Of a stretch of DNA of 13,958 nucleotides, positions 32 through 5,536 are shown in pieces (the stretch's first letter is position 1; every line of letters starts with the position of its first letter). A program made the translations under genes and the position numbers. The notes under the pieces are model-generated. The model saw nothing but the letters and a program-made list of their open reading frames with translations, ran no database searches and was not told where the DNA came from. Origin of the DNA: Candidatus Parcubacteria bacterium (GTDB lineage Bacteria; Patescibacteriota; Patescibacteriia; Patescibacteriales; UBA12075); NCBI GenBank assembly GCA_023139655.1, contig JAGLNE010000026.1:1-13958 (forward strand), written 5' to 3'.

Positions 32-67
32 AAAAAACAGGAGACAAATTTTTTTATCCATCCCCTG
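32..67 (-). terminator. Intrinsic terminator after the 43-aa ORF
   Basis: On the minus strand a seven-pair stem (61-67 with 38-44, one G-U pair) is followed by six T residues (37-32). It lies 27 nt beyond the stop codon of the ORF at 94-225. The loop is long (16 nt) but has complementary A and T runs that may tighten it. Only 31 bases remain to the window edge, and nothing was recognised there. Confidence 0.6.
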
Positions 68-93
68 CTTGTTTAACAAAATCAAACCGATAT

Positions 94-225
94 TTATTTT
101 CCTCGGTTTTCTTTTGTTTCTTCACTAGGTGTTTGTCTGCCCGGTCCTGGTTCAGATAAACAACTCCATGCAGCCTTTAAAGCATCTTCAACACTTAAAT
201 TCTTTGTGATCATCCGATTTTCCAT
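94..225 (-). CDS. Unrecognised 43-aa protein
   Basis: This ORF begins MENRMITKNLSVEDAL and ends in a Pro/Glu/Lys-rich tail (residues 26-43). I do not recognise a family. Its reality rests on context: an ideal Shine-Dalgarno sequence (AAGGAGGA at 231-238) sits 5 nt before the ATG, and an intrinsic terminator follows at 32-67. The first 22 residues could form an amphipathic helix; the rest looks disordered. There is no signal peptide or membrane segment. A terminator-like hairpin (257-285) lies only about 20 nt before the Shine-Dalgarno sequence, leaving no room for a normal promoter, so expression probably depends on read-through of that hairpin. It could be a regulatory peptide or a small cargo gene; function unknown. 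Confidence 0.6.
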   Translation of the reverse strand: MENRMITKNLSVEDALKAAWSCLSEPGPGRQTPSEETKENRGK

Positions 226-256
226 AATACTCCTCCTTATTTGCTAAAAGATTAAT

Positions 257-285
257 AAAAAAACCGGCTTTCTTATTTGAAGCCG
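257..285 (-). terminator. Terminator-like hairpin in the leader of the 43-aa ORF
   Basis: Minus-strand stem CGGCTT/AAGCCG (280-285 with 265-270), loop of 9 nt, an extra G, then seven T residues (263-257). It closely matches the hairpin at 1161-1187, which also sits just ahead of a Shine-Dalgarno sequence. It is either a true terminator of the upstream unit or an attenuator of the 43-aa gene. Confidence 0.65.
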
Positions 286-311
286 ATTCATTCCTTGATT
301 ACGTAATTATT

Positions 312-392
312 TTACGCAAAGCAAAAAACCGGCTGCCATTCGTAGCCGTAATAATAATATTTATTTTGTTTTTTAATTATTTTATTTTGCAT
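312..392 (-). CDS. Possible 26-aa aromatic leader peptide
   Basis: This is a short ORF, MQNKIIKKQNK followed by YYYYGYEWQPVFCFA. It has no Shine-Dalgarno sequence and its 3' half is the hairpin at 323-348. It is listed because the ORF at 1221-1307, in the same position ahead of another tiny gene, has a similar aromatic core: YYYYG-x4-PVFC here against YFYG-x4-PGFC there. The similarity may be forced by the shared hairpin and AT-rich DNA rather than by the peptide, so translation is doubtful. Confidence 0.25.
   Translation of the reverse strand: MQNKIIKKQNKYYYYGYEWQPVFCFA
323..348 (-). terminator. CCGG-type intrinsic terminator
   Basis: Minus-strand stem CGGCT/AGCCG (344-348 with 330-334), loop of 9 nt, then G and six T residues. 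It follows the three-gene operon that ends at 498 and precedes the hairpin at 257-285, so the two could act as tandem terminators. It resembles the hairpin at 1243-1266, including the flanking TTACGG and TTTTTTG-type ends. Confidence 0.65.
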
Positions 393-497: not shown

Positions 498-650
498 TTA
501 TGTTCCTAGCAGTTGATGAAGATCATCGCTTGATCCATGAATTTCACATGTGCTTCTAATAACTTGCACGTTTCCCATCATAGTTATTCCTTCTCCCTTT
601 TCTTTTCCTTTGCCTTTGTCTTTTACGCTTGTCGCTTTTTCATCTGCCAT
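498..650 (-). CDS. Unrecognised 50-aa protein
   Basis: Last gene of a three-ORF minus-strand operon. The start at 650 is chosen because AAGGAGG (660-666) sits 9 nt upstream; an ATG six bases earlier opens a frame that stops after five codons. The protein begins MADEKATSVKDKGKGKEKGE, a highly charged Lys/Glu/Gly stretch, followed by a more ordered half with TMMGNVQVI (residues 23-31), one cysteine (about residue 35) and two histidines. It has no signal peptide or membrane segment. It starts 24 nt after the preceding gene stops and is followed by the 17-bp hairpin at 420-457. I recognise no family; a small cytosolic accessory protein is all that can be said. Confidence 0.6.
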   Translation of the reverse strand: MADEKATSVKDKGKGKEKGEGITMMGNVQVIRSTCEIHGSSDDLHQLLGT

Positions 651-674: not shown

Positions 675-875
675 TTATCTGCCTACATCAGCAAAATTTG
701 CTTTACTTCTTTTTGGATTACGTAAGATATTTATGCCTTTCGCAATCCAATCTCTTAACTTTCTCAACTTTTGAATCCTTTGTTTGTCAGGATTTATCCC
801 TGACTGTTCCTCGGATAATTGCGTGCAACAATTCCTAAAATCAACCTCCAAATCGTCTTTTGTTCTCTCGGCCAT
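675..875 (-). CDS. Unrecognised 66-aa helical protein
   Basis: Middle gene of the three-ORF operon. The ATG at 875 has the Shine-Dalgarno sequence AAGGAGA (881-887) 5 nt upstream and lies 19 nt after the preceding stop. The sequence is rich in Lys, Arg, Asp and Glu and looks mainly helical: MAERTKDDLEVDFRNCCTQ, then a helix around residues 28-52 (KQRIQKLRKLRDWIAKGI) and a basic tail. It has a Cys-Cys pair at residues 16-17. There is no membrane segment. The basic helix could bind nucleic acid, but that is inference; I recognise no family. Confidence 0.65.
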   Translation of the reverse strand: MAERTKDDLEVDFRNCCTQLSEEQSGINPDKQRIQKLRKLRDWIAKGINILRNPKRSKANFADVGR

Positions 876-894: not shown

Positions 895-1128
895 TTATGT
901 TAATATTCCGGCTTGGTCATTTATTATTTCCAAACCAGACTCTTCAATTTCTCTACTGACTGGGCGTAACGTAAGCGGGAACATAAATGTATCTACTGAA
1001 GCGAGGATAACATGGCTTTTGTCTTTGGGATCCAATTCGATTATATTTCTGATTATCCCCGATGTTACTAATTGTAAACCGGGTCCAAGCTTCCAATAAG
1101 ACGCGTAATAAATCGTTTTAATTTGCAA
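895..1128 (-). CDS. Unrecognised 77-aa protein, TTG start
   Basis: First gene of the three-ORF operon. The start is a TTG (1126-1128), supported by a perfect AAGGAGGT (1135-1142) 6 nt upstream. The protein has hydrophobic strands alternating with charged turns (residues 1-25, 30-33 and 39-50) and ends in an acidic stretch around SREIEESGLEI. It looks like a compact beta-rich fold with no signal peptide or long membrane segment. Its leader is about 180 nt long, running from the promoter at 1317-1344 through hairpins at 1243-1266 and 1161-1187, so transcription into the operon may be attenuated. I recognise no family. Confidence 0.65.
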   Translation of the reverse strand: MQIKTIYYASYWKLGPGLQLVTSGIIRNIIELDPKDKSHVILASVDTFMFPLTLRPVSREIEESGLEIINDQAGILT

Positions 1129-1160: not shown

Positions 1161-1187
1161 AAAAAACCAGCCTTCTTACGTGGCCGG
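1161..1187 (-). terminator. Terminator-like hairpin in the operon leader
   Basis: Minus-strand stem CCGGCC/GGCTGG (1182-1187 with 1167-1172) with a 9-nt loop, followed by six T residues. The pair 1185/1169 is G-U on the minus RNA and C-A on the plus RNA, so it folds better in minus-strand RNA. It sits about 20 nt before the Shine-Dalgarno sequence of the 77-aa gene, matching the layout at 257-285. Confidence 0.6.
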
Positions 1188-1220
1188 ATCTTTATGTTTG
1201 TTGTATATATAATCTATTGA

Positions 1221-1307
1221 TTAATTCGTTTTACAACCACAAAAACCCGGCTTCGTAAAAAAACCGTAAAAATAAAAATACCAGTTGTTTTTGTGATTTA
1301 AATTCAT
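1221..1307 (-). CDS. Possible 28-aa aromatic leader peptide
   Basis: This short ORF begins only about 3 nt after the start point expected for the promoter at 1317-1344, so it would be leaderless. Its core WYFYFYGFFTKPGFCGC is strongly aromatic, and the hairpin at 1243-1266 lies inside it. Aromatic leader peptides overlapping terminators are known from attenuators such as pheL, but no aromatic amino-acid gene is present here. T-rich DNA encodes Phe and Tyr by chance, so translation is uncertain. Confidence 0.3.
   Translation of the reverse strand: MNLNHKNNWYFYFYGFFTKPGFCGCKTN
1238..1295 (-). promoter_or_regulatory. Leader hairpin pair ahead of the tiny-gene operon
   Basis: Two exclusive folds are visible in minus RNA. 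The inner one pairs 1261-1266 with 1248-1253 (CGGTTT/AAGCCG, one U-G pair) and is followed by GGTTTTTG, a terminator-like form. The outer one pairs CACAAAAAC (1287-1295) with GTTTTTGTG (1238-1246), nine perfect pairs, plus CTGG with CCGG after a two-base bulge. They share the CCGG segment (1247-1250) and so compete. This could be a switch, or simply a redundant terminator. Confidence 0.45.
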
Positions 1308-1316
1308 ATTAAAAGT

Positions 1317-1344
1317 ATATTACCAGATATAAAAAATATGTCAA
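1317..1344 (-). promoter_or_regulatory. Promoter for the tiny-gene operon
   Basis: Minus-strand -35 TTGACA (1339-1344, consensus), 16-bp spacer, and -10 TAATAT (1317-1322, four of six) preceded by TG in extended -10 position. The expected start is near 1310. It lies directly after the terminator of the candidate RNA at 1352-1503 and would drive the genes at 895-1128, 675-875 and 498-650. Confidence 0.6.
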
Positions 1345-1351
1345 ATTTGAA

Positions 1352-1503
1352 CTAAAACCGGCCCCCTGTAAAGGAGGCCGGTTTAGTTTTCCCTAATGGT
1401 GTTAAACTTAATTTTCAGTTAAAACACCACAATAAACCAATCTCCCGAAGAGGACAAACATAAAGTAGAAATAGGTTGTTTGTAGTGTTTTAACCATATC
1501 TGT
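1352..1503 (-). ncRNA. Candidate structured small RNA, unrecognised class
   Basis: A self-contained transcript of about 150 nt is predicted: promoter at 1509-1536, intrinsic terminator at 1354-1384, and no credible ORF between. The 5' arm (1474-1494) pairs with 1418-1438 over 21 positions: 18 Watson-Crick pairs, one G-U (1484/1428, A-C on the plus strand) and two mismatches. The 35-nt apical loop contains CTCTTCGGGAG, a small UUCGG-loop hairpin. The inner arm can instead pair with 1397-1408 (TGGTGTT with AACACCA plus four further pairs), so two exclusive folds are possible. It does not match SRP RNA, tmRNA or RNase P RNA as I know them; a divergent 6S RNA or a regulatory RNA remains possible. 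Confidence 0.5.
1354..1384 (-). terminator. Strong terminator of the candidate RNA
   Basis: A 12-bp stem (1373-1384 with 1355-1366) of AAA plus CCGGCC plus three further pairs, with a 6-nt loop (1367-1372). The pair 1375/1364 is U-G on the minus RNA and A-C on the plus RNA. The following T run is short (TTTT then AG), so release may be incomplete. Confidence 0.65.
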
Positions 1504-1509
1504 GGATAA
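1501..1509 (-). promoter_or_regulatory. DnaA-box-like site at the RNA start point
   Basis: The minus strand reads TTATCCACA, a perfect match to the DnaA box TTATNCACA. It abuts the -10 element (1509-1514) and covers the expected transcription start of the candidate RNA. It is the only perfect match noticed in the window. Confidence 0.4.
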
Positions 1510-1536
1510 TTATATCATATTGGTAGTAAAAATCAA
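1509..1536 (-). promoter_or_regulatory. Promoter of the candidate structured RNA
   Basis: Minus-strand -35 TTGATT (1531-1536), 16-bp spacer, consensus -10 TATAAT (1509-1514) and an extended -10 TGA just before it. The expected start is about 1502. It lies 45 nt beyond the stop of the Gmad2 gene (1582) and reads away from it in the same direction. Confidence 0.7.
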
Positions 1537-1581
1537 GGAAATTCAAGAAAAATAAAATATCTAATTTTAGCTATTTTTTCG

Positions 1582-4863: not shown

Positions 4864-4872
4864 AAGACTAAA

Positions 4873-4910
4873 GGCGGTCTCATGAAAGAATGAGAGACCG
4901 CCCTTTTTTT
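4873..4910 (+). terminator. Strong terminator of the plus-strand cassette
   Basis: Nine perfect pairs GGCGGTCTC/GAGACCGCC (4873-4881 with 4894-4902), 12-nt loop, a C, then seven T residues (4904-4910). It begins 9 nt after the stop at 4863. It lies between convergent genes and may also end the long minus-strand operon, though the T run on that side is broken. Confidence 0.9.
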
Positions 4911-4930
4911 ATCTAAATTATTTTTAACAA

Positions 4931-5536
4931 TTAAATCTTGTAAAAAAAAGCTTTGTTTTCTTTTTTAAATTTCTTTGATTTACGCTGGAATAATTTCTGG
5001 TTCTTGCTTAGCCAATCCAGTTTGCCGCGCCTGTCTTCCAAGGGAATAGCTTTATCCAGATTAAGATTCATAATATTAAAACCGGTACTAACAATAATAG
5101 TGTCAGGCCGGCATTCAAACTTAAATTTTTTACCCATCCCCCGCAGATCATTCGGGTACAAATGGCAATAAACAAAATCCGCGTCCCTTACATTTACCCG
5201 GAAAACTTCTTCTCTAACTACATTTATTTTAGTTTCTCGCACTAAAGTCTGAACCCAGGAAACCAAAAAAGGAAATAAATTAGGTTCAATGGCGGTCAAC
5301 TTGGCCTGAGGATATTTACGCTCCAGAGCGTGAAAAAACCCGGAACGCCCGGTAGAAAAAGCAATACAATTTTGCTTGCCAACCGGCAAGTCAAACTCAT
5401 TAATGATCTGCTCCACCACCCAGGGCCGCGAAGGGATAAAAGGCAAAAAGCCCCTGAGCAGTATATCAAACAAAAAACGGGCAGTAAAATAAACTATAAC
5501 GATAACTATTACTCCGGGTATAATATAAGAAAGCAT
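4931..5536 (-). CDS. Membrane-anchored methyltransferase-like protein
   Basis: A 201-aa protein with an N-terminal membrane helix (residues 3-27), the segment FLPFIPSRPWVVEQI (30-44) and a Rossmann-like core: CIAFSTGRSGFFHALERKYP (57-76), LTAIEPN (80-86), and NVVREEVFRVNVRDADFVYCHLYP (105-128). The layout (membrane helix, PF(I/V)PS, SAM motif, acidic residue after the second strand) resembles the small anchored class I methyltransferases of the FAM173/ATPSCKMT type. The SAM-binding glycine motif is degenerate (TGRSG rather than GxGxG), so activity is uncertain. The C-terminus is very basic. It lies 18 nt after the macro-domain gene, has no Shine-Dalgarno sequence, and ends the long operon. 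Confidence 0.65.
   Translation of the reverse strand: MLSYIIPGVIVIVIVYFTARFLFDILLRGFLPFIPSRPWVVEQIINEFDLPVGKQNCIAFSTGRSGFFHALERKYPQAKLTAIEPNLFPFLVSWVQTLVRETKINVVREEVFRVNVRDADFVYCHLYPNDLRGMGKKFKFECRPDTIIVSTGFNIMNLNLDKAIPLEDRRGKLDWLSKNQKLFQRKSKKFKKENKAFFYKI

Follow-up and report, generated by a model that had tools for sequence, protein, structure and literature searches.

An element on the minus strand of the window (the whole 13,958-nt stretch of contig JAGLNE010000026.1 of a Candidatus Parcubacteria bacterium that was analysed) is very probably a transcription attenuator of the ribosome-mediated, leader-peptide kind that responds to aromatic amino acids. The folded RNA is most likely the 5′ start of an mRNA that carries a tiny phenylalanine-rich gene inside the fold, and it would act as a switch that permits read-through when aromatic amino acids are short. 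It would represent an attenuator family that has no Rfam match and is kept across a single order of Patescibacteria, that of Ca. Falkowbacteria and its relatives, and what is new here is this family, a putative regulon of orphan tiny genes and a DnaA-type box at the promoter. Gene regulation in the Candidate Phyla Radiation (CPR) is little studied because most of its members are uncultured. The input of an attenuator is readable from its peptide, which provides a testable handle on the nutrient that these cells monitor, and the attenuator marks tiny orphan genes that the cells would switch on when this nutrient runs short. Through a DnaA-type box conserved at that promoter, amino acid supply would be tied to replication in an unusual way.

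Leader-peptide attenuators are well known in enteric bacteria, such as pheL/pheA, pheM, trpL and the his leader. Like them, the element has a short ORF rich in the amino acid to be sensed (coding by comparative sequence evidence), mutually exclusive hairpins, and an intrinsic terminator between the leader ORF and the structural gene; among the predicted pairings are an antiterminator that uses the 5′ arm of the terminator and an anti-antiterminator that includes part of the ORF. Matching biosynthesis genes are found downstream in relatives and are not found in the window's own genome. Unlike the enteric systems, the ORF here has 29 codons and extends across a 22-position helix, its aromatic codons are a mixture of Phe, Tyr and Trp, the antiterminator is nested, there is almost no 5′ UTR (in the window's copy), and the family occurs in one order of Patescibacteria. 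The features are collected in Table 1.

Table 1. Leader 1 and the tiny-gene operon behind it, in window coordinates.
Feature	Position	Strand	Description
Promoter P1	1509..1536	-	-35 TTGATT 1536-1531, 16-nt spacer with TG, -10 TATAAT 1514-1509; conserved across relatives
TTATCCACA	1501..1509	-	Exact DnaA-box consensus match directly 3′ of the -10; putative function
Leader peptide ORF 1	1408..1497	-	29 codons, ATG at 1497, stop 1410-1408; MVKTLQTTYFYFMFVLFGRLVYCGVLTEN*
Strand 1	1467..1495	-	5′ side of the anti-antiterminator helix
Strand 2	1417..1446	-	Partner of strand 1, or alternatively of strand 3 plus terminator 5′ arm
Strand 3	1396..1408	-	Inner antiterminator arm, AGUUUAACACCAU
UAGGGAAAAC stretch	1386..1395	-	Highly conserved, bulged out of the predicted antiterminator
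Leader 1 intrinsic terminator	1350..1388	-	5′ arm (1385-1372) doubles as outer arm of the antiterminator
Promoter-like P2 of leader 2	1317..1344	-	TTGACA, 16 nt with TG, TAATAT
Leader peptide ORF 2	1221..1307	-	MNLNHKNNWYFYFYGFFTKPGFCGCKTN*; R1 E = 2.1e-5 in the window
Leader 2 terminator	1161..1193	-	
Tiny gene 1	895..1128	-	77 aa, TTG start, strong Shine-Dalgarno, no Pfam match
Tiny gene 2	675..875	-	66 aa, no Pfam match
Tiny gene 3	498..650	-	50 aa, no F/Y/W, no Pfam match
Leader peptide ORF 3	312..392	-	MQNKIIKKQNKYYYYGYEWQPVFCFA*; probable; R1 E = 0.006; weaker structure and conservation
Leader 3 terminator	254..290	-	
Tiny gene 4	94..225	-	43 aa, no Pfam match
Terminator-like site closing the tiny-gene operon	35..70	-	35 of 36 bases the same in sister genome G001

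When window positions 1340-1545 were searched by BLAST in 59 related genomes, many of these proved to have a clear homologue (all 59 match at the loose threshold of E ≤ 10). From the matches, 37 segments were taken, 34 were trimmed (L037, L042 and L022 were left out) and 33 were aligned as A1 (without the second L033 copy), and the model R1 was built from the 33 rows of A1. R1 matches 46 of the 59 genomes at E ≤ 0.01, and at E ≤ 1e-9 we count 38 places in 36 of the 59, made up of the A1 rows and five others (in G009, where the BLAST match had been left out, in G041, where it was weak, in G027, in G056 and a second copy in G002). Among 285 genomes sampled from the class, R1 matches at E ≤ 1e-9 are confined to the same order, and nine genomes of the class outside that order give weak matches (E 2.4e-6 to 8.1e-4). 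A sequence pattern run over genome contigs returned 24 stretches, 21 of them with an R1 score of at least 83 bits, and 20 of these 21 are titled Falkowbacteria, Parcubacteria or Patescibacteria. The pattern matches L118, L128 and L133, outside Patescibacteria, have no R1 match and are taken as chance, and a phage origin was dropped after the pattern gave 0 matches in viral contigs. A further R1 match in the window's genome (G000:C82:747-840) was rejected as the end of an ordinary ORF and a terminator-like hairpin, no leader ORF being seen there, and a weak one on the minus strand of the window (4866-4971, E = 1.1e-4 in the window), which lies between convergent genes, is probably a bidirectional terminator. 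The 5′ part of the leader, which we had taken to resemble a Cas12a-type CRISPR repeat, was dropped as such after the alignment showed the ORF and BLAST against its own genome found no other copy.

The first-pass annotation had described this region as having no ORF, and an ORF list with a 40-aa minimum omits the 29-codon leader ORF; a conserved ATG ORF is nevertheless present at 1497-1408. It spans the long helix, with aromatic codons 9-12, 14 and 17 in the loop and codon 22 in strand 2. No Shine-Dalgarno sequence was seen in the window's copy, for which the position of the -10 suggests a 5′ UTR of a few nucleotides. That the ORF is coding is argued by comparison. In the unselected alignment of 37 segments an ATG stands in the aligned column in 27; all 27 reading frames run through strand 2 without a stop, and 26 of them keep a common frame with respect to it. 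In the trimmed set of 33 the ATG is present in 29, and 28 of these share the same frame despite six different distances between the ATG and strand 2; the trimming rule (an ATG whose ORF has 24 codons or more and an early K) favours the ORF, and the frame count was repeated on all 37 untrimmed segments. The G038 ORF is out of frame at strand 2. The peptide consensus is approximately M-I-K-T-x-Q-K-T-x-F-[WYF]-F-S-F-[YWF]-F-Y-G-S-x-R-R-S-V-F-C-G-V-L-T. Each leader peptide contains 6-10 aromatic residues, with at least three Phe, 0-3 Tyr and 0-1 Trp, and Phe makes up 18.4% of leader peptide residues. The three differences between ORF 1 and its counterpart in the sister genome G001 are one synonymous change and two non-aromatic replacements (M13T and V15A).

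The near-perfect long helix proposed in the first-pass annotation is borne out, with 20 pairs over 22 positions (1495-1474 with 1438-1417), and the minimum free energy (MFE) of the minus strand of 1345-1505 is -54.4 kcal/mol (z = -6.3), with none of 200 shuffles as low. The competing 3′ helix and the strong terminator that had also been described are present in the predicted folds, and the minus-strand sense of the RNA is backed by conservation and by the ORF. The UUCGG mini-hairpin said to cap the loop is absent from the minimum-energy fold, and the sequence is UUUGG in G001. A covariation check on homologues, which had been proposed, found covarying pairs in excess of chance. For helix 1:2 and the terminator together, 92.2% of cells are paired (46-59% in slid versions), double-change cells number 116 versus 28.2 in shuffles, and covariation is 0.372 versus 0.10-0.15 in slid controls; the terminator helix (helix 3) has 93.8% of its cells paired, and 10 of its 12 pairs are changed on both sides. 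In full-segment MFE folds, helix 1:2 is present in 30 of the 33 members and the terminator in 32.

Covariation support for the antiterminator is weaker than for the other helices. Its cells are 82.2% paired, and it has 35 double-change cells versus 20.0 in shuffles (none of 500 as high); its count of doubly changed pairs is reached by 29 of 500 shuffles, and sliding it by -1 gives 31 double-change cells. When scored as present if strand 2 makes at least six pairs to the terminator 5′ arm in the MFE, the outer antiterminator occurs in 29 of 33 members, namely in 28 of the 29 that have the ORF and in one of the four that do not. In most members, then, ORF and antiterminator are either both present or both missing, as the attenuator model requires. 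The four aligned members that have no ATG ORF (G004, G010, one G011 copy and G040) also have a very short loop, and three of them are without the antiterminator, yet the one in G010 precedes prephenate dehydratase. The attenuator model leaves these four unexplained. The loci of the ORF-less members with a very short loop are L039, L027, L031:3897-4027 and L032, the copy in L031 preceding a gene with a tRNA-editing domain (PF04073). The UAGGGAAAAC(A) stretch is highly conserved in leaders with and without the ORF.

From the parts, their conservation, the predicted alternative pairings and the genes downstream, all of which are read from sequence, we infer ribosome stalling, the amino acid sensed and the regulatory outcome as follows. 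Transcription would begin at P1, and a ribosome would start on the leader ORF very near the RNA's 5′ terminus. With ample charged tRNA-Phe (and Tyr/Trp), it would reach the stop codon at 1410-1408 and cover strand 2, the terminator at 1388-1350 would form, and termination would yield a discrete RNA of about 150 nt. During aromatic shortage the ribosome would halt at F/Y codons of the loop (1473-1447), masking strand 1, and the freed strand 2 would pair with strand 3 and the terminator 5′ arm, so that transcription continues. In an untranslated RNA, strands 1 and 2 would pair and transcription would terminate. The genes controlled in this way would be those of DAHP synthase, ADTH synthase or the prephenate branch in relatives and, in the window's genome, a tiny orphan operon with two more aromatic leaders in series.

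In relatives the leader repeatedly precedes genes of aromatic biosynthesis. DAHP synthase (PF00793) occurs in five of the 59 genomes, and in four of these (G014, G033, G042 and G044) a leader lies on the same strand within about 0.9 kb upstream; the fifth, G048, has a doubtful one, a weak R1 match (E = 0.0048) with no aromatic ORF. ADTH synthase (TIGR01949) is above cut-off in three of the 59 (G016, G024 and G039), and all three have a leader upstream, those of G024 and G039 scoring weakly (E = 0.0016 and 2e-7) but having aromatic ORFs and terminators. One Pfam scan of the ADTH synthase was made on the first 70 residues, and the full protein was scanned too. According to NCBIfam, the first-step enzymes behind the leader are of three unrelated kinds, the AroFGH type, the B. 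subtilis type and an archaeal-type ADTH synthase. Prephenate dehydratase (PDT, PF00800) is found in 17 of the 59 genomes and has an R1 leader on the same strand within about 1.3 kb upstream in nine (G007, G010, G022, G027, G032, G038, G049, G054 and G056). In G040 the leader 230 nt upstream of the PF00800 gene is of another kind, with a run of seven Phe and a terminator, and no leader was found at the PDT gene in the other seven (G003, G006, where only about 300 nt of contig lies upstream, G021, G024, G033, G039 and G048). We calculate that, in genomes of about 1.1 Mb with 1-2 leaders each, a given gene would have a leader placed before it by chance in about 0.1% of cases. Chorismate synthase (PF01264) was found in none of the 59 genomes, although some of them have DAHP or ADTH synthase and prephenate enzymes, and controls were detected in 14 of 14 cases; the aromatic pathway looks incomplete or looks to contain an unknown enzyme.

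As the first-pass annotation had noted, leader 1 precedes an operon of tiny genes, and four tiny orphan genes lie downstream with leaders 2 and 3 interspersed among them. The order 3′ of leader 1 is leader 2, three tiny genes, leader 3, the fourth tiny gene and a terminator, behind which G001 has a sodium/hydrogen exchanger gene. Of the four, tiny gene 2 alone was compared with 5.8 billion proteins and gave three matches, including the window's own. It has a tail in common with its G001 counterpart, KRSKANFADVGR (window 675-710, minus strand), the rest having diverged, and one tiny gene of G002 ends in FSDVGR. An apparent aromatic depletion of the tiny proteins (6.6% versus 9.4% in large ones) is not claimed, there being no fair small-protein control. 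Tandem leaders are also found in G002, G015 and G041 (by R1) and in G005 and G054 (by an aromatic ORF with a terminator); the finder used for the latter also returns many unlabelled ORFs and was therefore used only beside other evidence. R1 matches contig C22 of G015 (L033) at four successive places (E 2.4e-16 to 1.4e-4), and the tiny genes that follow differ from place to place.

In the window's reduced genome (G000, 89.65% complete) no match to PF00793, PF00800 or PF01264 was found, and TIGR01949 gave only a sub-threshold match. In this genome the leader appears detached from the aromatic pathway and stands in front of tiny orphan genes, as would also be expected if the window's leader were a functionless relic that has survived the loss of its aromatic genes. 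We read a PDT-like fragment and ACT-like small proteins, present in G044 and G051, as signs that such loss is ongoing (the ACT-like protein of G044, the only one of these scanned, has no Pfam match). That the leader is a relic is unlikely, however, in view of how it has been kept. Between G000 and G001, leaders 1 and 2 are 96% and 95% identical (leader 3, 86%), and the adjoining tiny genes 1-4 are only 35, 63, 29 and 54% identical. The three differences in ORF 2 between these genomes are all synonymous. ORF 3 differs by an in-frame deletion and by several replacements, one of which removes its Trp. The occurrence of three leaders in series also argues against a relic.

What the leader peptide senses could in principle differ from charged tRNA. 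Erm and SecM leaders are examples in which the nascent peptide arrests the ribosome, and here such arrest might respond to a small molecule or a stress, as the long conserved C-terminal segment, the mixture of F, Y and W rather than one amino acid, and the tiny genes downstream in genomes without the pathway would allow. Such a mechanism is very unlikely, as an aromatic signal is in keeping with the first-step and prephenate-branch enzymes found behind the leader and the tandem leaders have mainly the aromatic cluster in common.

The first-pass annotation had proposed a small RNA gene, possibly a divergent 6S RNA. A regulatory RNA with its own promoter and mutually exclusive folds is what the analysis also finds; that it stands alone is not upheld, given its attenuator anatomy and the aromatic genes downstream in relatives. 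A small RNA of about 150 nt that acts in trans and has a promoter and terminator of its own would account for the strong fold and for the members without ORF and antiterminator, and a terminated attenuator RNA would resemble a small RNA in RNA-seq, but it is made highly improbable by the aromatic ORF, conserved in frame, by the overlap of antiterminator and terminator and by those downstream genes. The terminated attenuator RNA may nonetheless have some effect in trans. With 6S RNA the element has in common a long imperfect helix and a large loop, and it differs in its coding ORF and terminator switch; RF00013 gave nothing above cut-off in 19 genomes including G000, and the one match found in the set was at chance level (E = 4.4). 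The Rfam search that had been proposed, covering 4227 families, gave no gathering-score match in the window, in keeping with the earlier view that no named RNA class applies, and a T-box or known riboswitch was rejected on this result. Phe_leader (RF01859) reached 23.9 bits, below its gathering score of 55, and no tRNA or tmRNA match exceeded the threshold. It is scarcely credible that the locus is a small-protein gene whose product (e.g., a short aromatic membrane-active peptide) is the functional output, the fold serving expression only, because the conserved peptide sequence, including the C-terminal R-S-V-F-C-G-V-L-T, is encoded at that end by strand 2, where pairing can account for conservation, because such a gene has no place for a terminator and antiterminator, and because tandem leaders with other termini retain the aromatic cluster.

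For the aromatic attenuator itself, searches of the accessible literature on attenuation and leader peptides in Patescibacteria or CPR, a scope that excludes most subscription journals and all bioRxiv preprints, turned up no earlier description. The accessible part of one report describes a Phe-Tyr-Phe run in the Corynebacterium glutamicum aroF leader before DAHP synthase (PMC4046766), and the likeness lies in an aromatic leader peptide preceding a first-step enzyme; the C. glutamicum leader is from another phylum and shows, in that accessible part, only the Phe-Tyr-Phe run.

The extended -10 promoter described on the minus strand (TTGATT, TG and TATAAT) was recovered and is conserved in relatives. 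This conservation, and not the number of promoter matches, makes P1 credible, as promoter-like matches in positions 1-2300 are overall at chance level (8 found versus 8.5 expected). In most promoters of the attenuator family TTATCCACA follows directly behind the -10, and it matches the DnaA-box consensus given in the accessible text of PMC10989985, TTA/TTNCACA. Including the weak leaders, 30 of 47 leader places carry TTATCCACA within 180 nt upstream or at their start; that of the third G015 copy is inside an ORF, leaving an exact copy in the promoter of 29 of the 47, the window's leader 1 among them. As a control, 435 of 20000 random 190-nt segments of the analysed loci contain it. The box is retained where the -10 varies (TAAACT, TATACT and GATAAAT). 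The 14-mer TATAATTATCCACA has 34 sites in the 59 genomes and its reversed control two, and by our own comparison against the R1 matches these 34 comprise 22 sites at strong leaders, two at weak short variants (G025 and G048), eight sites elsewhere and two at contig ends that resemble cut-off leader copies. In G016, G032, G034, G044 and G051 an inverted second TTATCCACA lies 31-32 nt upstream and frames the promoter; such a dyad (spacer 15-45) has six sites in the 59 genomes, five of which are these leaders, and its reversed control has one site each in G032 and G051.

DnaA boxes have been proposed, in the accessible text on the E. coli his operon, to act on its attenuator in the RNA, with two mismatches each (PMC10989985), in contrast to the exact putative box found here in the DNA directly after the -10. 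Around 20 loci with dnaA domains only two boxes occur in 64 kb, and oriC was not located. As there are no box clusters around dnaA, another regulator with the same site may act at these promoters. Tentatively, we suggest that an order-wide aromatic attenuator with a DnaA-type-box promoter may have outlived its pathway, being kept, in places serially, in lineages that lost aromatic biosynthesis, and that it might now couple an operon of tiny, extremely fast-evolving orphan proteins to the aromatic supply (probably that of a host or neighbours), the box tying the operon to the replication state. The DnaA-box-like TTATCCACA is seen after the -10 at loci L203-L207 as well as at positions 1501-1509 of the minus strand of the window.
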